Shown: positions 51,770 through 63,050 of the stretch, in pieces
Position numbering within the stretch: the first letter of the stretch is position 1
Layout of the letters: each line of letters begins with the position of its first letter
From: Hyaloscypha bicolor E
Taxonomy: Eukaryota; Ascomycota; Leotiomycetes; Helotiales; Hyaloscyphaceae
Direction: 5' to 3'
Assembly (NCBI RefSeq): GCF_002865645.1
Contig: NW_020194551.1
Coordinates: forward strand, 1-64,000
Length of the DNA: 64,000 bases
Position numbers and translations under genes: made by a program
The notes under the pieces: generated by a model
What the model saw: only the letters and a program-made list of their open reading frames with translations
Databases searched by the model: none
Told to the model about the DNA's origin: nothing

Positions 51770-52771
51770 TCAAAGATGGCTTTGGCTTTTCGCTTGGTCT
51801 CGATTCTCTTGAGCTTTCCTCAAGAGCGCATATAACGTTTGTAGCCTCGGCATTTCCAGTCCCTTTTCTCTCGCAATGCGAATTGGGTTGCCCAGTATAA
51901 CCTCAAGCTCCATCCGCTTTCCATTTTCCCAGTCAAGTAGCATACTGGGCTTACTACCACTCGTATTCTTCTGCGTGCTGGCTAGGATCGCTTCACTGGT
52001 TGCGAACTCCTTCGGCAAGGGCGTGCCCAGAACCTTTGGTGCCGTACTCAAAACTTCATCCATTACCGCCTTCAAATGTATATATAACTCCGGATCCAGA
52101 ACCATGGCATTATTTGTAGTCCCATTAGACAAGACAGCAGATGGATTCATCGAGGCGTTGATAGCAATCTTATGCCACCGCACCATCTGTAGCTTCGAAT
52201 GCGAGTACTCCTCTGCATCCTCGATCTCTCCTGCCTGTAGAAGTTGCACGAACCTCTTGTTGCTCTCAATGGCTGCCCAGCTCGTGGATCCGGGGAGGTA
52301 TGGTCCAACACTAATGCGTGTCCAACGATTGTGCTTAATAATACCAGGCTCCGTCTGCGCCGCGGAGACGATTGTGACAGCACTCAGTATTATAGCTGAG
52401 GGGAAGCGCTTCAAGTACGGCTCTTCAACACCAAGGCCATTCTGTACCAGGACGATCGAGGTCCCGTCCCCAACCAAGCCCTCCAAGATCTCCGAATCAT
52501 CACTCACATCCGGCAGCGCCTTCGTGCTCACAACAATATAGTCCCATTTTATCTTCGAGTCGATAGCTTGCCGCGGGTTTGCGAACGTATGGTGAGGTGT
52601 GAAGGTGTAGGATCCGTATTTTGGGGAGGAGATGGAGAATCCGTTTGCGTGGACGACGGTGTAGTTTGATCGGCAGATTACAGAGACTTGGGTTGAGGGG
52701 ACGAGGGCCAGGCGCGAGGCGTAGAAGGCTCCTACTGCGCCGGCGCCGACGATGAGAATTTTTATTGGCAT
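51770..52771 (-). CDS. 2-dehydropantoate (ketopantoate) 2-reductase-like enzyme, 333 aa
   Basis: This is an NADPH-dependent reductase of the ApbA/PanE family, which makes D-pantoate for vitamin B5; fungi carry several paralogues, some with other 2-keto acid substrates. The Rossmann motif ILIVGAGAVGAFYASRLA begins at residue 5. The catalytic Lys region is VRWHKIAINASMNPSAVL near 197, matching the conserved K-(L/I)-(A/V)-IN element. The C-terminal ApbA domain has SMLLDWENGKRMELEVILG and GNPIRIAREKGLEMP, with the family Glu. Length is normal and there is no intron. It is convergent with the DUF1445 gene. The true substrate is uncertain. Confidence 0.9.
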   Translation of the reverse strand: MPIKILIVGAGAVGAFYASRLALVPSTQVSVICRSNYTVVHANGFSISSPKYGSYTFTPHHTFANPRQAIDSKIKWDYIVVSTKALPDVSDDSEILEGLVGDGTSIVLVQNGLGVEEPYLKRFPSAIILSAVTIVSAAQTEPGIIKHNRWTRISVGPYLPGSTSWAAIESNKRFVQLLQAGEIEDAEEYSHSKLQMVRWHKIAINASMNPSAVLSNGTTNNAMVLDPELYIHLKAVMDEVLSTAPKVLGTPLPKEFATSEAILASTQKNTSGSKPSMLLDWENGKRMELEVILGNPIRIAREKGLEMPRLQTLYALLRKAQENRDQAKSQSHL

Positions 52772-52992
52772 GGTGAGGTCGGATGGTGTGAGGAAGGATG
52801 TTGCGAGATGTCGCGTTTTGGAGATGAGGTGAGCCGAGGTTGCTTGATGTGGGGCTTGGACATCGCCTCAACTCTTCACATCAACTCTCCTTGGAAAGAA
52901 AATTATCACAACGTATAATTGCTGTATATGTTCTATATTGCACAGAAGTGTCTGTATCTTGTTGCATAAACTCTTTTGTGTGTTCTTAGAAG

Positions 52993-53290
52993 TCACCTCG
53001 AGATCATATCTTTTCTGTCAGGTCCCGTTCCAATCCACGCAATCTTAACACCCACTGCACTTTCAAAGAATTCCACATAGTTCTTGCGCTCAAGCAGCAA
53101 TTCGTGGTAGTTATTGACTCCTTTGATTGATTTCTGCCAATCTGGCAGTGTCATGTATCTGACGGTGACTTTTGAGAGCTTCCCAGACTGGCAGGAAAAG
53201 ATTCCAGTTCACGGCCGTCTATCTCGTAGCTAGTAGCAGCTTTGATTGTTTCAAATGTGTCGAGGACATCGAGCTTGGTGAGGTGGAAGG
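52993..53290 (-). pseudogene. Adenylosuccinate synthetase C-terminal fragment
   Basis: Adenylosuccinate synthetase makes adenylosuccinate from IMP. Only about the last 95 residues are present. LTKLDVLDTFETIKAA is the conserved GTP/IMP-site block, then YEIDGRELESFPA. A one-base frameshift near 53170-53185 follows, then TLPDWQKSIKGV, KNYVEFFESAVGVKIAWIG and TGPDRKDMI, with the TGA at 52993. Sequence before LTKLDV does not match the enzyme, and the opposite strand there already reads as GARS, so the fragment is truncated at about 53290. It cannot function. Confidence 0.85.
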
Positions 53291-53999
53291 CAATGGGTTG
53301 AGCATTCTCAGTTTCAGTGATGGAGTAGCTTTCAAGTCGATGCCTCCTGCACAAGACCACAAGCGGATTTCCGATGGCGGTTTGGGACCGAATACTGGTG
53401 AGATAGGCTGCTACGCTCCGACGAAGATTGCAACTTCTGGAGTGATTCGGGAGATCGAGGAGACGATTCTCAGGCCGACCTTTGAGGGGATGCGGAAAGA
53501 AGGTGAAGCTAGCTGTGGTACTTGAACTCTTTGGTAATTGCTGAAATGTGAATAAGCATCCCGTTTGTTGGCAAGATCTTCACGGGCATCATGCTCACAG
53601 AAACTAGTTCGAAGGCGTTGGGGTATAATGCCCGTTTCGGTGATCCAGGAGCCCAAACCTTACTTCCTCTCTTGAAGAGTGATCTTGCCGAGATCGTGGT
53701 AGCTTGTGTAGAAAGGCGCCTGCACGAAACAAAAGTCGAGATGCACGACAAGTTCTTTGCTGTTGTGATTACTTCAGCATGAGGGTACCCTCGAGCTTCC
53801 CCAAAGGGCGATGTAATCGAACTAGGCTCCCCTACACCAAGTACAAGCATGCCCTCAAACTATTTATTGGCATCCATGCTTACAATCTACGCAGAAGCAC
53901 CATCTACCCCCAACTTCTTCCATGCTGGAACGGAACTGCTGCAGGACGGCTCGATCGTTACTGCTGGAGGAAGGGCGATGGCCGTCTCAGCGATGAGGC
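53262..53999 (+). pseudogene. GARS domain fragment of the purine enzyme Ade5,7, left part
   Basis: Glycinamide ribonucleotide synthetase joins phosphoribosylamine and glycine. The plus strand reads LSILSFSDGVAFKSMPPAQD, LGPNTGEIGCYAPTKIATSG and IEETILRPTFEGMRKE. After a probable intron at about 53504-53553 it continues IPFVGKIFTGIMLTE, YNARFGDPGAQTLLPLL and LAEIVVACVERRL. Damage: the splice joint leaves the frame one base short, TGA at 53780 replaces part of the SGGYP loop with a frame slip, and the metal-binding Glu of the GDPEXQ motif is Gly. The ATP-grasp start and the whole AIRS half are missing. The frame continues to about 53994 (AGTELLQDGSIVTAGGRAMA), where the large transposon interrupts it. 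Confidence 0.88.
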
Positions 54000-54072
54000 T
54001 ACTGAGGCCCACAGCTAGCTAGCGGACAAATCCGAGAAGCGAAAAGTGATTTTCTGATTTTCTGATTTTCGC
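54000..54072. repeat. Left TIR of large transposon
   Basis: This pairs with 62886-62966. The outer 10 bp are identical, then come a few mismatches, then about 50 near-identical bases. The left arm has one fewer ATTTTCTG unit than the right arm, which accounts for the 8-bp length difference. A run of 31 C (54089-54119) follows, matched by a shorter G run at 62873-62884 on the right. Confidence 0.9.
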
Positions 54073-54087
54073 ACTGGCGCCCCGCAC

Positions 54088-54122
<35 letters not shown>

Positions 54123-54592
54123 TCCCCAAGGCAGAATTCCTAATTAGGGGTATAGCACCCACACGTGACTTTCGGCTTGGATAACGCAATAATAGTAAGG
54201 CTGCTTGCTTGTCTAATTAACGAAGTAAGAGCCCATACTACCGCGTGAAATCGTGCCAAAATTAGGCCGGGTAGTATAATATAAAATTGAGTATTTATTA
54301 CAAATTACTATAGTCAGGTAACCACAGGCTATAAGCCCTTCTAGGATAACGCTATTAACAGGGTCTAATGACTTCCTTAATATTCCCGAGGTTAGAAATA
54401 AGAAAATTAAACTATTAAAATAACTGAGAAGCCGGCTAATTACTTTTTTTTGGTAATTAATTAACAAAATCACGTGGGGGTAACGTTACTCGAGTTTTTT
54501 AGCGCTCACGTTACTAGAAAGTACGTCGCGATAGTAAAGCGTGCCCTGAACTTAACCCCTATTAAAATAACTTGGTGGATTTTATTAAAATA

Positions 54593-56560
54593 ATGCCACG
54601 ACTTTTAATAAATCTATTACCATATCGCGAAGCTATTACTAAATAGGCTTATACGAATATTAATTAAGAAGAAATTGCGAATAGATTAAAAGATTTATAT
54701 GGAATCTTAGTCAATCCGCGTATGGTCCGACGGCGACTATAAGAATAGAATATCCAAACACGTACTTAAATAGTAAATACGCCTTTCCTTCGCGCGCAAA
54801 TTATAATCCTGTATTATCTGGGAAATATAGATAAGGAAATACTTGAGAATCTTGAGGATTACGGTTATATAGCTTTAATTACTAGAGTTATCCGCATACG
54901 CAAGAAGCTTGGTCTTATTTGCCATATGACTATAATAGACAGGCAAGTGGCGGACGAGTAACTATTTATAATACTATAGAGTAAGCTAAATAATAGGCGG
55001 GTTACAGGTTATGAACGGCGGCATTTGCACGCGTACTTCCGTTAATAAGGTTTACTAGTAACCCGGTTAGTCTTTCTATACTTTACTATTTTGCCCTAGC
55101 TTGGAAGGTTAGGGCCTTATTTACTAACGTATTTTATTATCTATAGGGAGAGCTTATATGTGATATTATAATTCCTAGATCCCGAGGCAATTATACTATA
55201 AATATAACGGATATAGTCCAAGAAAGGAGAATATATTATGCCTGGGCCGGACTAGATTTAGTTAATTAATAGACACGATAAGCTATTACTATTTGGGATT
55301 AAGATATACGCTTATATTAATACTTATTTACGTAATATTATCTGGGTATATATTAGAATCTCTAATTAGACTACCTATTCGGTTATATAGTAGTATCTTC
55401 AGATTTGTGCTTAAATGAGCTACTGCCCTTATTTCTTTAGGGCTAATCGAGGCTCTAAACTCCCCCTTATTACTAAAGCATACTTTGCATTCTCGCGAAT
55501 AGCTGATTTATTAATTGTGCGCGTGAAGAACTGCTTTATTTCTGGGAAAAGCACCGAGAATTAGCGGGTTAAATCCTGGTAGCAGGAGCTTTAGAAGAGC
55601 TAGCTATACTAGTAGCGCGTGAGCAATTCCGTTTCCTTATATCTGCCCCTTATTCTTTCTATTATTAGGAGGGAGTATTAGGTACTAATAATTACACCGC
55701 TTTTTATTAAGGCTATTAGGTCTAGTATTATAGTGCCGGATTATATAACTAATTCTGATTAGTATATATAGAATTACTTTTAGGAACTAGCCCATACCGA
55801 GGATTATAATTACTAATACCTATGGGACCGGATTACTTTACTAGTACTTTATATATAGCGGATCCAAAACGAGATATATAGGTTCGCGGACTTGTGAAAT
55901 ATTTATAGGATTAGAAAAGATAGATCTAGGCCTAATATGGTAGCCGGCAAGCTATTTAGACTATATACGAGGCCCCCAGGCAAGGCATAGTACTGGGATT
56001 GCCCTATAGATATAGAGCTTTATAATATAATCCTTAATAATTACTTAGTTTAGGGTAAGTAATATGACCTCGCATAGCTTTACACGGATAGTTTACTCAC
56101 ATACTAATATAGATATTAATAAGTTTCTGCCGAGAGAAATACTAGAGTAGTACTATTAGAAGCTCATGTCTTATAATATAAATATAGCTAATATTTATAT
56201 GGGAGATACTAATAGAAACGGTAACTAATTACATGTTTAAGCTTACTACTAGCTCTAATATATAGTCCGGGCACATATAGCCTTAGGGCAGCTACTAATA
56301 TTAGGAGAGTCCGAGAAGCTAACTAGTAGATATAATATCGCTATTACGCGGAATGGGATCCTCAAGCAAGTTGTCCTAATAAATACAGAGTATATAAATA
56401 ATATATAGGCCAGAAGGATACCCGTATAGTTCCTAATAGTCCAGGACTTTACCCAGAAATAGCCCTTTATTAGTAATACTCCTAATAATATGGGGTAATT
56501 AAACGAGCCGGTTATAAAGTAACTAGGTATATTAAGATAGGTATTATTTATTATTAAATA
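54593..56560 (+). pseudogene. rve-type (DDE) integrase relic of the large transposon
   Basis: The plus frame starts MPRLLINLLPYREAIT. An N-terminal part with helix-turn-helix-like blocks follows (EIANRLKDLYGI, VNPRMVRRR, IRIRKKLGLICHM). The integrase core then reads GYERRHLHAYFR, GPD, NRHDKLLLFGIKIYAYINTY, IIWVYIRISN, RANRGSKLPLI, EN-RVKSW and IRKDRSRPNMVAGK. By comparison with rve-core proteins encoded in other fungal genomes, as I recall them, the three acidic residues should sit in IDGHDK, RSDRGSE and NQRIEAWW. Here they are Asn (55268-55270), Asn (55445-55447) and Lys (55571-55573), all explained by G-to-A changes. Frameshifts and many RIP stops make it dead. The end is approximate. Confidence 0.7.
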
Positions 56561-57218
56561 TATTATTTTTGAAACCCCCTTCTTACTTTTAAGAGTAGTA
56601 TTAATAGAATTATTAAGTTTATCTATTATATGAATATTCTATATCCTTAAATTCTTATCTTTCAAAATAGCACTACTATTTCTTAAAACCTGCCCTAATA
56701 CTATATGCCCCGTAGCCGAATACTGGCATGGTAATATCTAATATTACGAGTTCTATTAATCTACTAATAATAAATATAATATAGAGGCCGCCGCTTTACT
56801 TGTCTAGAGTAATAATACTAGTAGACTTGAACCTCATGGCTCTGGAATTCCGTCCGCATCTGCCTCCCTCTTTATACCTGGAATACTTTAGATCCCTAGC
56901 TCTTCTTAGTATTCTTATCCCGTATCTTTTCTTCTAGGAATATCTATTATACTTATTTCTCTAGTTACTATTACTATATAGCTACTAGGTACTAGTTCTG
57001 CTCCATCCCAGGCTCCTCCTGCTCTAATGGCCCCATAACTACTCCCTTCCGTATTCCCTTTTACTACGAGCCATATTACTTGACCTAACTACTTTTCTAG
57101 TAATACTTATACTACTACACAAGCTTAACGGGCTATAAATACGAGAGTTACTTAGGCCACTGCCTAGGCCATAGCTTCTCATACTAGTAATAGGCTACCT
57201 GGAGCCCTTTAAGGTCTC

Positions 57219-58560
57219 ATGAATCAAAATGTGGCCGGATCTAGTCTTATGGAATTACAGACCGTGGTTTTATAGCTAGTTCTCCGTAAGTAGGCATTTA
57301 ATAATATAAAGAATTAGAGAGCTAAGTAAAGAACTATCTAATTTTCTAAAGAAGTCAGTAATAAGTTTTCTCCTATTTCTTTTACTAGATTCTCTATACG
57401 AATTCTAATAGATATTTTTTAATAGGTAGCTTTTAATTTAAAATAAATAATTAAGTCTTTTCTACTCTTTCTAATATAGTTTCTTAGTAGCTATTCCCTT
57501 ACTTCTCTCTCTATATTAGCGGACTTACCCGCTATTATTAATTTATTAATAATGCGAATAAACTAGTATTTTATACTAGTTCTAATAGTAAAAGAGCCCA
57601 GGAACTTATAATCTTGCCAGGTTCTATTTAAACTATCTTTAATCTTTCCCGCTATGGCATATATCTAGGCCCTAAGAGTATCTGGATAATTTTCCTTGTT
57701 TTATACCAGGATAAGACTCTATATAAAGATATTTGTCTTGAAATTACTTGTAAAAAGCTAGAAAATACTCAGAAGGAGACTTTATATAAAGATCTCTATC
57801 TTAAAGTTACTCGTAAAGAACTAGAAAATGCTCAGAAAGCATAGTAACTTGAGGAAATTAAATAATAGACTAAGGAGGCCCAGAGAGCCCAGGAAAGTAT
57901 TACCCGCTAGTATAGGCATGAGACTTTAAGAGTAAGGAGGGATCTAATAAACTAGTAGGCAAATAAAGGCATATATATAATCCTCTCCTTTAATTCTGGC
58001 TCTTATTCTTTATTTCTTCTATAGACCCTTTTTTATTTTTAGGTTTAATTAACTTATACGTGCCAGGATTCTTCTTTACTTACCGACCTCTGGGAGCCGC
58101 AAGATAATATAGAAAGTATTACTAAAAGTATTACCAAAGCTAATCCTAATAATAATAATAATAATAATAGTAATAGGCTATTAGATCCTCCTTTAATTTT
58201 ACTATTCTCTTTTCTAGTAAAGGAAACTATAGTTAATCTCATGAACCATATAAGTATTACTCCATAGTAATAGGCACGTTAGAGATATGAATATACTACC
58301 CCTCTTCCTTATTAGATATAGAGAATTAACGGGTATAATGTCTTTAGCTTTACGGGTAAAACCCAAGGTATCCGGGCTACTACTAGCACTTTGCCTATTA
58401 CCCCGGACAGAAGTCTAACTATTATTATTAAACTCCCTAGGCTAATTAACCTTACTTCTCCTAAGCAAACCCATTATATAAGGTCTAATAAATTACGCAT
58501 AAATATCCGCCGAGGTTAAGGTAGTTAAGAAAAAATAGGCCTAATATCTAATATGCTTTT
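57219..58560 (+). pseudogene. Second gene relic of large transposon, coiled-coil and Asn-repeat
   Basis: A frame beginning near MNQNVAGSSLMELQTVV (57219) leads to a 21-residue tandem duplication at 57715-57840 (TLYKDICLEITCKKLENTQKE, then a close copy). A coiled coil follows (LEEIK, TKEAQRAQESITR), then a probable intron near 57970-58050, an Asn run from AAT repeats (58151-58171) and a tail RINGYNVFSFTGKTQGIRA. RIP stops interrupt it. I cannot name the product; a DNA-binding or regulatory partner of the integrase is only a guess. Confidence 0.45.
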
Positions 58561-61500
58561 TCCTATATCTTATAATTAGCTTAGTACTATTTTAGGTCTT
58601 ATTTCCTTATAAATATATATATACTTGGAATTTATAATTAATACTTTAAAGTAATGCTCTTTAATTAGTTCTTATGTAATTTAAAAGTTAGGCTACTAAA
58701 TTTAATACTTTTATAATACTTAAATTCACCCAAGTTTATAAAGTCTTGTAATTATTAGGGCCTTTATAATTCTTTGCCTTTTAAGTTTAATACCTAAATA
58801 GTATTATATACTTTGTTTTTAGTATAGAGAAGGCTCCTAAAAGTCTAGGGTTATAAAGGGATTTTTATATTAAGGATATATTATATTATAATAATGAAAT
58901 TATAGGCATTTATATATAGATATATAATATATTAGACTAGCTATACTAAAAACTATACTATATCTATATATAAAGTTACTAATTACTTTATATTAATACC
59001 GGACCCGCGTGGTCACGTGACTCTATATAATTAGCTAGCTATAGAAAAGCCCTAAAGCCCGAAACTCACGAAGAGTCTTAAGGGCTTTAGGGCTTCCGGA
59101 CTATTACTAGTACCCGGCACTCTTTAGGAAAAGAGTATAATACGTTCCATAATAAGTAACCTATTATGAACTACTTAACCTTTAAATTAAGCGGGAAATC
59201 TGAGGGCCGGGCTCGTAATTCAAGTCTTATTAAGGTTATTAAAGTCTTTGCTAGCTAGTGCCATAGATTTAATAAAAATATTACGGGAATCCTATAGGTT
59301 CTATCCTAATCTATCCAGAAAACGCATATAATATGTCTCCTTATTTATTCCGACATTTATATATGATTCCTGAGAGCCGAACTATTACCTAAAGAGGAAG
59401 TGAGAAGGCTAGACTAATACCTTTAAAAACTAAGGCCTTAATAAGTCTATCTAGAAAAGCTTACTAATTCTTCTAAAAATAATCCAAGAAAAGTTTGAGT
59501 TTATTATACGTCACGACTTGTATAACCAGGGACAGGAACTACTCCGATAAGCCAGAAAGAGTTTCTTATATGGCTCACTTATATAACCAGGGATAGGGAC
59601 TTAAGTTTATTATATGGAATTACTCATATATAGAGACTCTTGCTATAAACTCCTCGTTTAGATTAATTAGTTAAACCTATTTTTAATACTAAGTCTTTAT
59701 TAAGGTAACTTCCCGCTCCCAGAGGCTTTAGATAAAGTAGCTAATAAGTTTCTTAGCTATTAGCCAAGACTTATTAGCTAGAAAATCTATAAGTAGTAGA
59801 CAAGATTATAAAGCAGAACTTCCCTAACTATAATACTAAGATATTTTACTATAGCGCAAAGTAATTAAATATAGAAGCCCTATTAAATATAATATGTCTC
59901 GAACTATAAGTTTGCGAGATAGGTATAAAAAGTCTTAGTACTTAACTAGCACTATAGTCTAGCCTAAAGGCGCCTACTATCCTTTATACCTAATTTAATA
60001 GGAATAAGGAATACCTATACTTTAACTCAAGGGATAATTAGGACTTTTATATAGACTTAGGGTAGCGGTTTACTTTATAGAGAGAGAATAAACCAGAAAT
60101 ACCCATACTATATTAATCTTTGGGAGGGGTCACGGTAAATACTATAATTCCTGAAATACTCTCGAGGAAGCTTCCCCGAACCAAAGTAGGCTAGTTTATA
60201 ATCCTAAAAGATCTATAAGAGTCTTATATGCCCGAGAGTGCAAGCGCTTAAGATAAATACTATTTGAGTCCTAACCCATAATAAAAGGAAAGTAAAACAC
60301 ATAAAATAAAATATATAAAGCAAAAGTAAAACAAAATACCCAGGTATTTAATAAATAGAAAGCCTAACTATAGGCTATAAGAACTAGTACTAACTAGGCA
60401 CATACACGGTAATATTAAAGGAGAGATAAGGTAAGGGAAACTAAAAAGTAAGTTAGTATATATTTTATAAAAGCAAACGGGAAGACATCTAAATAGCCCG
60501 AAGGCAAGAAATATATATTAAAGAAGTCGAGATCAGAGAGAGAAAGGCTATTTCCTATAAGAATAAGTTAGTATATATTTCAAGATAAAGAATAGGGGTA
60601 TTTAGTAGTGGCCCGAAGGCTTTTGTGAGTATTAAAGGAGGGGAGAAGGTATTAAAGTTCGGAGAGATCTAAATAGGAGTTAGCCTCTTTTTTGGAAGTT
60701 TAAGAGAGGGTACTCCTAAAGGGCCCAAAGGCATAAGAGGTATCGGAAAAGGGAAGAAGGAAATATTAGAGAAAGGAAAGAGGAATCTAAAATTTAGCTT
60801 TCTAAGGAGCAAGTGGGTTAAAGACTTATGGTATGGGAGTTCTGGATAAAAGTAACCCGGAAGTAGTAGTCAGGTACTAGCTTTTAGTATTATTAGTAGA
60901 AGTATTAAAGGAGGAGGGGTTCGGAGGAGGGGTTTGGAGGAGTTCGGAGGAAGAGAGAAAGGTTATAAGGTAATTAGATACTAGCTCTTGGTATTAATAA
61001 AAGAAGTATTAAAGGAGGAAGGGTTCGGAAGAGGGGTAAGAAAGAGGAGTAAGGAGAAGGAGTGAGGAGAAGTGAGAAAAAGGAGAGGAAGATTATAAGG
61101 TAGTTAGATACTAGCTCTTGGTATTAATAAAGGTATTAATAAAGGTATTAATAAAGGTATTAATAGAGAAGGTATTAGTAGAGGGCAGAAGCTCTTGGTA
61201 TTAATAGTAAAGTCGAAAAAATATGGAAGAAGGATAGAGGTTTTAGAGCAAAGATAGAATAGAGTTATAGTTTTATAGAAAATAAAGTTACTAGTACGGA
61301 ATAATTATATTATTATATAATTCCATATTTACTTTTACTATTTATTAAGGATATATATTTCTCAGGAGAAAGTATTACTTAGAATTCTTGAGCCTCTCTA
61401 ATTTAATAATTATATATTCGAAAAATAAGAAATAAATATGATTATATATGCTAGAATAAGGGGATTCTTCTTATTCAAAAATTATAATTATGGTATTACT

Positions 61501-61939
61501 AAATATAAAGATATAGAAGTTTATATAATAAGCTATATATAGAGATTTGAGGAGATTTAAATTACCTCGAATTATTTATAATTAGTAAAGTAAATTAGCT
61601 AACCATGCGAGTCGAGTATAGTTTAATTATTATTAGTATGCCTTAGCTTTTGTGAGTTAGTAAGAGAAAGAATATTTATATCTTTATCTTTATAACTATA
61701 ATACCTAAAATTATAATTTTTTTAATATTTAAATATACTTAATCTAGGGCTATTAAGTACTAATATTTCCATTTTCAGGCATTATTTATTATAAATTTAT
61801 TCGGATTTAAATAATTATATTAAATATATATCTTTATGCCCCAAAAGTAAATAATAAAGACATAGCCACGCTAGCTTTAACCTTAGCCTTAACCTTAACC
61901 TTAACCTCTTTCCGAAAATAACTTTGATTCTAATATATA
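58561..61939. other. Non-coding interior of large transposon: hairpin and purine-rich repeats
   Basis: I see no credible gene here. A 14-bp inverted repeat (AAGCCCTAAAGCCC and its complement) lies at 59047-59060 and 59082-59095 with a 21-bp loop. Two copies of a TATAACCAGGGAYAGG block lie at about 59520 and 59580. From 60470 to 61200 there is a degenerate, purine-rich array with GCCCGAAGGC recurring at about 60496, 60612 and 60723, TACTAGCTCTTGGTATTAAT at 60983 and 61110, and GGTATTAATAAA tandem copies at 61117-61165. Degenerate CCTTAA copies occur at 61880-61908. Confidence 0.5.
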
Positions 61940-62866
61940 ATGCCATTATTAAAGCTCTCCTTTATTAAAGACATATTAAATATGGCTTTAGGCAATGGCT
62001 CTAGTAAAGGCAAAAGCGGTAGAAAAGGTAATAAAGCTATAAATAAGCGAAAAGATAATATTTATGATATGCCCTCTAATAATCCAGACTTAGTTTATAA
62101 TATCCTCTCCCGTTAATATATTTAACTAATAAACCCCTTTGCTTCTCGACCTCCTCCTCGTATATGACCTCCTTTTCCTCCTCCGCAATAATACTTTAAT
62201 CTCCTTATACTACCCGATAATGCTACTAAAGTAGTAAAGCGAATTAATAATAAGGCTAAAGTTAGAGAGATAGAGCTACGCTAGGGCAGGGAGCTAAAGG
62301 AATTAGAGAAAGGCAAGGCAAATCTGGAGGCAAGCTTAGCATATACTCGCGGAACCAAATCCTCTCAAGCTTGTGCTACTTATAGTAATAAGAAAAGACT
62401 AAGGGGCCCTTTTAAACGCTATATAGTTATGGAAGGCGAATTTGATAGCGCTTATATAAATTATAGATATAATAATAATGGTAAAGTCTATACTTTCCAT
62501 TAACTTAACGCTAATCCTACCAAGTCTGGAAAGCCTCGCTTCGTATCTGCAAAACCCTTTATACCAAAGCCTCGACCGCCTATAAGATATAGAAAGCGAG
62601 CACAAAGACAGATATAAGGTCAGAAGGCAATGGGGAAGGAGGTTATAGCAGAGGAGGGTGAGGATACTAGAGGAGAAGGGGACGAAGGAGATATAGATAA
62701 TTCGAGTAATATAGGTAGTACGGAGGATACAGAGAGTGAGGGAGATGGAGATGTGCCTCGTAATCCATGGGATTTGCCTTACGGACCCTTACGGACCACG
62801 CAAGCTAAGGGGGGGTTAGGAGTAGTCGAGAATAAGGCGTGTATGCTGTACTTTTTTTTTTTAGTG
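61940..62866 (+). pseudogene. Third gene relic of large transposon, acidic C-terminus
   Basis: The plus frame starts MPLLKLSFIKDILNMALGNG, continues as a basic Lys/Arg-rich part (GKSGRKGNKAINKRKDN), then a coiled coil (RELKELEKGKANLEAS), then KSGKPRFVSAKPFIPKPRPP and an acidic Glu/Gly/Asp tail from about 62636 (EEGEDTRGEGDEGDID). Interruptions are all TAG or TAA at likely glutamine codons, so the original gene was close to one open frame. It reads out through a T9-10 run into the right TIR. No known domain; a possible accessory protein of the transposon. Confidence 0.5.
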
Positions 62867-62885
62867 AGGTGTGGGGGGGGTGGGC

Positions 62886-62966
62886 GCGAAAATCAGAAAA
62901 TCAGAAAATCAGAAAATCACTTTTCGCTTCTCGGATTTGTCCGCTAGCCCGCTAATGGCCTCAGTA
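62886..62966. repeat. Right TIR of large transposon
   Basis: This is the inverted partner of 54000-54072, ending ...GGCCTCAGTA just before the GAGGC duplication. Confidence 0.9.
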
Positions 62967-63050
62967 GAGGCAACTGTCAAATTGGTCTACACCGGAGTAC
63001 ATGTTGTCCACTTTGGCCGCATGTTTTATCAAAAAGACATCACACATCGG
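62967..63050 (+). pseudogene. GARS domain fragment, right part after the transposon
   Basis: Directly after the right end of the large element, the frame reads EATVKLVYTGVHVVHFG, then MFYQKDITHR, the block that ends the GARS domain (consensus DIAHR). It follows from the left fragment at 53994 once the transposon and one GAGGC are removed, apart from a small deletion or frame slip. A GT-AG stretch at 63049-63086 resembles an intron. I do not see AIRS sequence beyond it. Confidence 0.82.

Follow-up and report, generated by a model that had tools for sequence, protein, structure and literature searches.

The window, comprising the first 64,000 nucleotides of contig NW_020194551.1 from Hyaloscypha bicolor E (an 82-Mb genome in 76 contigs), carries near its right edge an 8,967-bp unit (54000–62966) that is closed by terminal inverted repeats (TIRs), encloses a broken transposase gene and further gene relics, and interrupts a host gene remnant. 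We are confident that this unit represents a single insertion of a DNA transposon family with several genes, which encodes an rve/rva_4 integrase-type DDE transposase with a Clr5/helix-turn-helix (HTH)-like N-terminal DNA-binding region. The features of the locus are as follows, where P0001, P0006 and P0049 are proteins matched by the transposase gene.

52500..53999, plus strand: left part of a host GARS-like pseudogene, from GARS_A and GARS_C Pfam matches
53995..53999: left copy of the target-site duplication (GAGGC), read directly
54000..54072, plus strand: left TIR, beginning TACTGAGGCC and closing in TTTTCTGA-type units, from repeat and end-pattern searches with limits set by eye
to ~54127: C-rich tract directly inside the left TIR
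54575..56500, plus strand: transposase gene, broken, from P0001, P0006, P0049 and rva_4 matches; the outer limit of 56500 is estimated
54575–56059, plus strand: P0001-matching part of that gene, interrupted by 35 in-frame stops, of which some lie in inferred introns
near 55066–55146 and 55619–55771: inferred introns, judged by eye as stretches absent from relatives
55232–55588, plus strand: rva_4 core match (Pfam)
56109–56396, plus strand: C-terminal exon, matching P0006 and P0049
56730..58560, plus strand: second gene relic, with serine/threonine-rich and coiled-coil-like stretches seen by eye; limits and frame tentative
59100..61300: middle region, with no Pfam match above cut-off in any frame
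60866–61184: imperfect tandem units within the middle region
61950..62790, plus strand: DUF3716 gene relic with its domain at ~62330–62500, Cys-rich in the C26 copy; limits estimated
62886..62966, minus strand: right TIR, from repeat and end-pattern searches with limits set by eye
62967..62971: right copy of the target-site duplication (GAGGC), read directly
62972..63050, plus strand: remainder of the GARS_C domain, from a Pfam match on the joined flanks

Direct reading of the sequence shows that the unit opens with TACTGAGGCC and closes with GGCCTCAGTA, and that GAGGC abuts it on both sides. A repeat search recovers inverted arms of ~100 nt (53999–54098 and 62868–62967) with a complementarity of 83%, in which TIRs of 73 bp on the left and 81 bp on the right can be delimited by eye, the right one having one additional TTTTCTGA-type unit. 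A search of the genome with the end pattern, allowing up to two mismatches, finds 124 occurrences as compared to one for the reversed control, which speaks against chance. The unit, TIR lengths and flanking repeats given in the original prediction are borne out. The insertion interrupts the host GARS-like pseudogene: GARS_A matches lie to the left of the element and are followed by a match to GARS_C, which goes no further than the junction. In the left flank alone this match breaks off at position 60 of the 92-position profile (32.0 bits, cut-off 34.8), while with both flanks joined by X it runs to the last position (44.1 bits), so that GARS_C is whole across the empty site. The two halves lie in different frames and the left half contains stops and frame changes, and the split gene is therefore a pseudogene or has introns.

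The same unit recurs throughout the genome. Three parts of the element were used as queries, and for each only the best candidates were scored: 40 of 198 for the left end, 40 of 118 for the 5' third and 38 of 263 for the 3' part. The resulting counts are therefore lower bounds, and most long DNA matches are 80–92% identical to the element. Distances computed from 100 of the 124 ends give 40 convergent neighbouring pairs, of which 32, each composed of one left and one right end, span 8.5–9.4 kb with a median of 8,947 bp. The shortest of the 40 measures 8,629 bp, and we conclude from these distances that it is the whole unit that moves; no short two-ended derivative is found among the 100 ends listed.

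Junctions were compared in 31 insertions, the window copy and 30 others, with two-ended copies chosen by matching these ends. Twenty-nine are two-ended in the fetched pieces and all of them have common borders and TAC..GTA ends; as for the other two, the right end of the C58 copy lies 18.3 kb from its left end, and the C34 copy has no left end within the fetched piece. An exact 5-bp duplication flanks 25 of the 29, with all 25 sequences different, and a duplication with one mismatch is present in two more (C26 and C21b). In the last two, both on C45, the duplications are swapped, so that the 5' flank of one copy matches the 3' flank of its partner and vice versa. For each remaining length between 2 and 12 bp, 0–2 of the 29 copies are exact, and for 6 bp none is. 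Insertions elsewhere in the genome thus repeat the ends, the borders and the duplication length that had been read from the window copy alone, and the description of a long, multi-gene TIR transposon that has a transposase of the integrase type and makes 5-bp duplications holds. At the 25 exact sites, G stands two bases ahead of the duplication in 15, C immediately before it in 13 and G immediately after it in 14, which hints at a weak symmetric preference for GC-N5-GC targets.

The two C45 copies (C45:294457–303299 and C45:356692–372539) are in opposite orientation and have exchanged their duplications (ctcag and tgttg), as would be expected if the ~53 kb that separate them had been inverted. 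Two head-to-head pairs (C18:429276–447208 and C2:752734–770887) were considered as inverted dimers made by transposition, on C18 over 429276–447095, and rejected, as they look like neighbouring or nested, rearranged insertions; a left tip at C18 is inverted and detached from its element, and the C2 copies lie ~355 bp apart. In each of contigs C2, C15, C20, C24, C36 and C47 an element end is truncated by the end of the contig, 60–94 bp into the element, and the C- or G-rich tract on the inner side of the TIRs is therefore the probable breakpoint of the assembly.

The integrase frame named in the original prediction is real, but its best Pfam match is rva_4 (PF24764) rather than rve (PF00665) as first proposed. 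The rva_4 score is 17.8 bits in the window copy, below the cut-off of 26, and exceeds this cut-off, at 41.5 bits, in the C26 copy, which is the least mutated of those seen. A profile built from nine X-masked copies (nine of ten aligned copies, with L021 omitted for a 19-base deletion) finds three proteins among 8000 scored candidates, the best of which is P0001; its 495-residue frame comes from JGI metagenome data (longest contig 3,455 bp), has no interruption and is 75% identical to the C26 copy. The window copy differs from P0001 at 150 of 494 compared residues, 35 of these being stops, and all 150 are reachable by C>T or G>A, as are all 123 residue differences between P0001 and the C26 copy; in a control with P0001 shuffled, only ~10–11% of differences are so reachable. 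It follows that an uninterrupted form of this transposase exists elsewhere, and the pattern of changes suggests that P0001 derives from the same or a very close species.

A protein search with P0001 (best 8000 candidates scored) yields 57 proteins, P0001 included, with named sources that include Aspergillus, Usnea, Letrouitia, Fusarium, Ilyonectria, Thelonectria and Botrytis. At E 0.05 these match 13 Pfam families in total, with rva_4 in 57 of 57, rve in 49, Clr5 in 36 and HTH_21 in seven; the best HTH_21 match is below its cut-off (25.5 of 28.1 bits), and Integrase_H2C2 is not among the 13 families matched by these proteins, many of which are partial. D232, D249, D291 and E333 (P0001 numbering) are nearly invariant among the relatives, and we take D232, D291 and E333 to be the catalytic residues on the basis of the rve pattern. 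In the nine copies the first two of these putative catalytic residues read N in 9/9, and the last reads K in 8/9 and E in one; the window copy reads N, N, K. In a phylogenetic tree the window copy groups with the C26 copy, P0001 and P0004, the last from a 12.5-kb contig (100/99 support), with the letter make-up of two rows changed by repeat-induced point mutation (RIP) flagged as unusual. A scan of prokaryotic genomes returns one weak locus (L102) among 22 candidate stretches.

Copies of the element differ from one another almost only by C/T and G/A changes, that is, by changes of the RIP type. Ten aligned copies per half, selected by interior similarity and all with exact tips, give 644 A/G and 607 C/T gap-free two-state columns and one multi-state column in the 5' half (70 gapped columns set aside), and 817 A/G, 627 C/T, eight other two-state and seven multi-state columns in the 3' half, where the window copy is included (180 gapped columns set aside). 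At each end, again with ten aligned copies, transition columns are absent from the outer 60 bp (fraction 0), and their fraction climbs to 0.24–0.31 beyond 500 bp. Over 28 bp, and among the 31 insertions, which were picked through end matches or long matches, 30 left tips are without mismatch, as are 26 right tips, with a further four carrying one; exceptions to this conservation are found in the C18 and C2 clusters, where left tips have been altered. The near-absence of changes other than RIP-type ones leads us to infer recent mobility of the family, and the element was probably mobile until recently and is now RIP-inactivated. Since the end sequences are kept in most examined copies, most of these could in principle be mobilised by transposase supplied from elsewhere, despite a broken transposase in every copy examined.

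A second family with an rva_4 transposase and a DUF3716 gene is present in the same genome. Its reference copy (C33:2568526–2574079, equivalent to L109:3527–9080) is 5.55 kb long and has 40-bp TIRs (90% identical, E 2.5e-8) that enclose an rva_4 match at C33:2568676–2569866 and, 3.3 kb from it, a DUF3716 match (24.7 bits, cut-off 22) on the strand opposite to the transposase. The first 301 bases have 18 matches, 13 of which start at the first base. Junctions were examined in the best ten copies, of which five have a right end at the expected distance and five have none in the fetched stretch; all five two-ended copies show a 5-bp duplication at constant borders (CTGAA, CACAG, ACTAC, TGGAG and ACAAT). 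An alternative 6-bp reading, with the border shifted by one, is possible in two of the five (C33 and C45) and impossible in three. This family starts with TAC, as the window family does, and ends with AGA, unlike the window family, from which it also differs in its length, its shorter TIRs and the orientation of DUF3716. Its transposase is identical to P0001 in 150 of 488 columns (31%), and at the DNA level the window and C33 copies have one common 68-bp stretch, the C45 copy two short ones. Near position 306613 of C49 a second-family copy is nested in the left TIR of a window-family copy, as shown by the flanks. A further rva_4 place, C24:516002–516541, adjoins a window-family fragment, and the DNA there matches neither family.

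The two further gene relics of the original prediction fared differently. One carries DUF3716, which scores 44.9 bits in the C26 copy (cut-off 22); the other, at ~56.7–58.6 kb, is without a recognisable relative, and a search with it (7 of 10 aligned copies, frame 57626–58651), in which 8000 candidates were scored, brings up no protein at E 0.01. When all six frames of two copies are scanned against Pfam, only rva_4 and DUF3716 exceed their cut-offs, in DNA where RIP could hide a gene. Statistics of stop density, TGA runs and GC by codon position did not settle the middle genes, because of RIP-made stops in every frame. The word DUF3716 is not mentioned in the literature searched, which excluded most subscription journals. 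Outside the element, window positions 53100–53999 have no further DNA match elsewhere in the genome. Positions 1–21000 are largely very AT-rich (18–32% GC, and 39–40% at 7–9 kb) beside a block of 44–57% GC at 22–54 kb, a composition that RIP may have produced.

Several observations weigh against the reading of the unit as a transposon family with the transposase described above. P0001 stops short of the C-terminal exon and apparently runs on through the two putative introns, and is therefore not the full transposase; its Clr5 match falls below the cut-off (17.8 of 22.3 bits). Sequence searches of the PDB return nothing with P0001 and six chance-level matches with a 27-sequence profile. DUF3716 has 17 matches genome-wide, of which two are in the window family (C26 and C61) and one in the second family; as the domain also occurs at other places in the genome, its role in transposition is putative. 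All 90 protein-level transposase matches in the genome (86 of 209 candidates scored) contain stops, so activity is inferred from insertions only.

With these points taken into account, the unit is a genuine DNA transposon. Its lineage is IS3EU-like, and both its duplication length and its gene set are unusual. PMC10045372 and PMC12730594 describe IS3EU by its TA..TA ends, by duplications that usually measure 6 bp and by the absence of an HHCC motif, with fungal multi-gene members in Pucciniales and Tuber. The window family resembles these, by published description rather than by sequence comparison, in its integrase-type DDE transposase, in the lack of a detectable H2C2 zinc domain, in TAC..GTA ends that fit TAY..RTA, in its TIRs and in its extra genes. 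Styx of Zymoseptoria, called IS3EU by its authors, is 7,927 bp long with four open reading frames (ORFs), a 36-bp TIR and 6-bp duplications, and PMC10853768 reports no Styx-like element outside that genus. As described there, Styx is like the window element in its size of ~8–9 kb, its TIRs, its several ORFs including an integrase and its RIP-like mutations, and also in the chromosomal rearrangements linked to it, and its degenerate copies are said to be mobilised; it differs in its TIR and duplication lengths and in its GATA, CCHC and DUF3577 genes. Given these resemblances in ends, zinc domain, extra genes and length to IS3EU, with Styx and the multi-gene elements of rust fungi included (PMC10853768, PMC12730594 and PMC10045372), the earlier verdicts "not assignable" and "little described" are too strong.

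Whether the element is no more than a new family within IS3EU, a superfamily of Repbase, with 5-bp instead of the usual 6-bp duplications, is in our estimate an evenly balanced question. The TAC..GTA ends, the absence of Integrase_H2C2 from the 57 relatives and the similar length and multi-gene layout of Styx all speak for it, and the few sub-threshold matches to the IS3-type HTH_21 are suggestive. Set against this are the 6-bp duplications, exact in none of 29 copies, and the 5-bp duplications of the second family, whose right end is AGA and not GTA. The Pucciniales TET/JBP IS3EU elements, as PMC12730594 presents them, have TAYGG..CCRTA ends and an alpha-kinase gene, whereas the window family has TACTG..CAGTA ends, and the gene seen in it carries DUF3716 rather than alpha-kinase or TET/JBP; no alpha-kinase match was obtained in six frames of two RIP-damaged copies, where RIP could hide one. 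As its ends and its lack of the zinc domain agree with IS3EU and its duplication length does not, we call the window element IS3EU-like, by likeness of described features, and not IS3EU.

A separate, undescribed lineage of superfamily rank, defined by rva_4 with a Clr5-like HTH, a DUF3716 gene and 5-bp duplications, is a possibility that we regard as doubtful. It would account for two families that have diverged to 31% transposase identity and yet have in common the rva_4 core, DUF3716 and the 5-bp duplications, for the presence of rva_4 in all and Clr5 in 36 of the 57 related proteins, and for the single weak prokaryotic locus. The TA..TA ends and missing zinc domain are, however, traits of IS3EU, the HTH_21 matches hint at kinship with IS3, and the two families both come from one genome. 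The broader form of this proposal, that such a lineage of rva_4/Clr5 transposase, DUF3716 accessory gene and 5-bp stagger at GC-N5-GC runs across filamentous ascomycetes, is slightly more tentative still; if it were true, the fungal Clr5 and DUF3716 domains would be partly transposon parts. No published element of this description was found in a literature search made mostly at listing level and without most subscription journals or Repbase.

A Ginger2/TDD-type transposon is very improbable: this group has integrase-type DNA transposons with 4–5-bp duplications, 5 bp in TDD-4 and TDD-5, but also TGTNR ends, an H2C2 zinc finger and an AT-rich RTATAY target (PMC2836005), and it is contradicted here by the TAC..GTA ends, by the lack of the zinc domain among the 57 related proteins, many of them partial, and by the weak GC-N5-GC preference. 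Least probable of all, and likewise rejected, is a remnant of a long terminal repeat (LTR) retroelement, Polinton, Starship or DNA virus, to which the integrase-type core, the 9-kb length and the several genes could point: the terminal repeats are inverted with no long direct repeat, the TAC..GTA unit is uniform with exact 5-bp duplications where Polinton/Maverick elements are expected to make 6-bp ones, and, in agreement with the original prediction, nothing of an LTR element, Polinton or Starship, including reverse transcriptase and DNA polymerase B, appears in the six-frame Pfam scans of the two RIP-damaged copies, in which a gene could be hidden.

As for the mechanism, the transposase would bind the ~75-bp TIRs with their TTTTCTGA units and would bring both ends together in a paired-end complex. 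The 3' ends would then be attached to the two strands of the target at points 5 bp apart, GC-N5-GC being weakly preferred, and repair of the gaps would leave the 5-bp duplication. The products of the DUF3716 gene and of the second gene would most likely be accessory factors, and movement may be by either cut-and-paste or copy-out.

These findings define a fungal transposon family with exact borders and tie it to an uninterrupted, though not full-length, metagenome transposase frame and to a sister family with the same gene pair, and the poorly known IS3EU-like group is thereby extended by a variant that can be tested and whose duplication length is different. The window element is one of dozens of copies in this genome, dead as far as examined, and its group looks little-described among fungal transposons. 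RIP-type changes destroy the genes and leave the outermost 60 bp of the aligned copies unchanged, a graveyard of copies most of which are still potential substrates, and one pair of copies carries the mark of a ~53-kb inversion.

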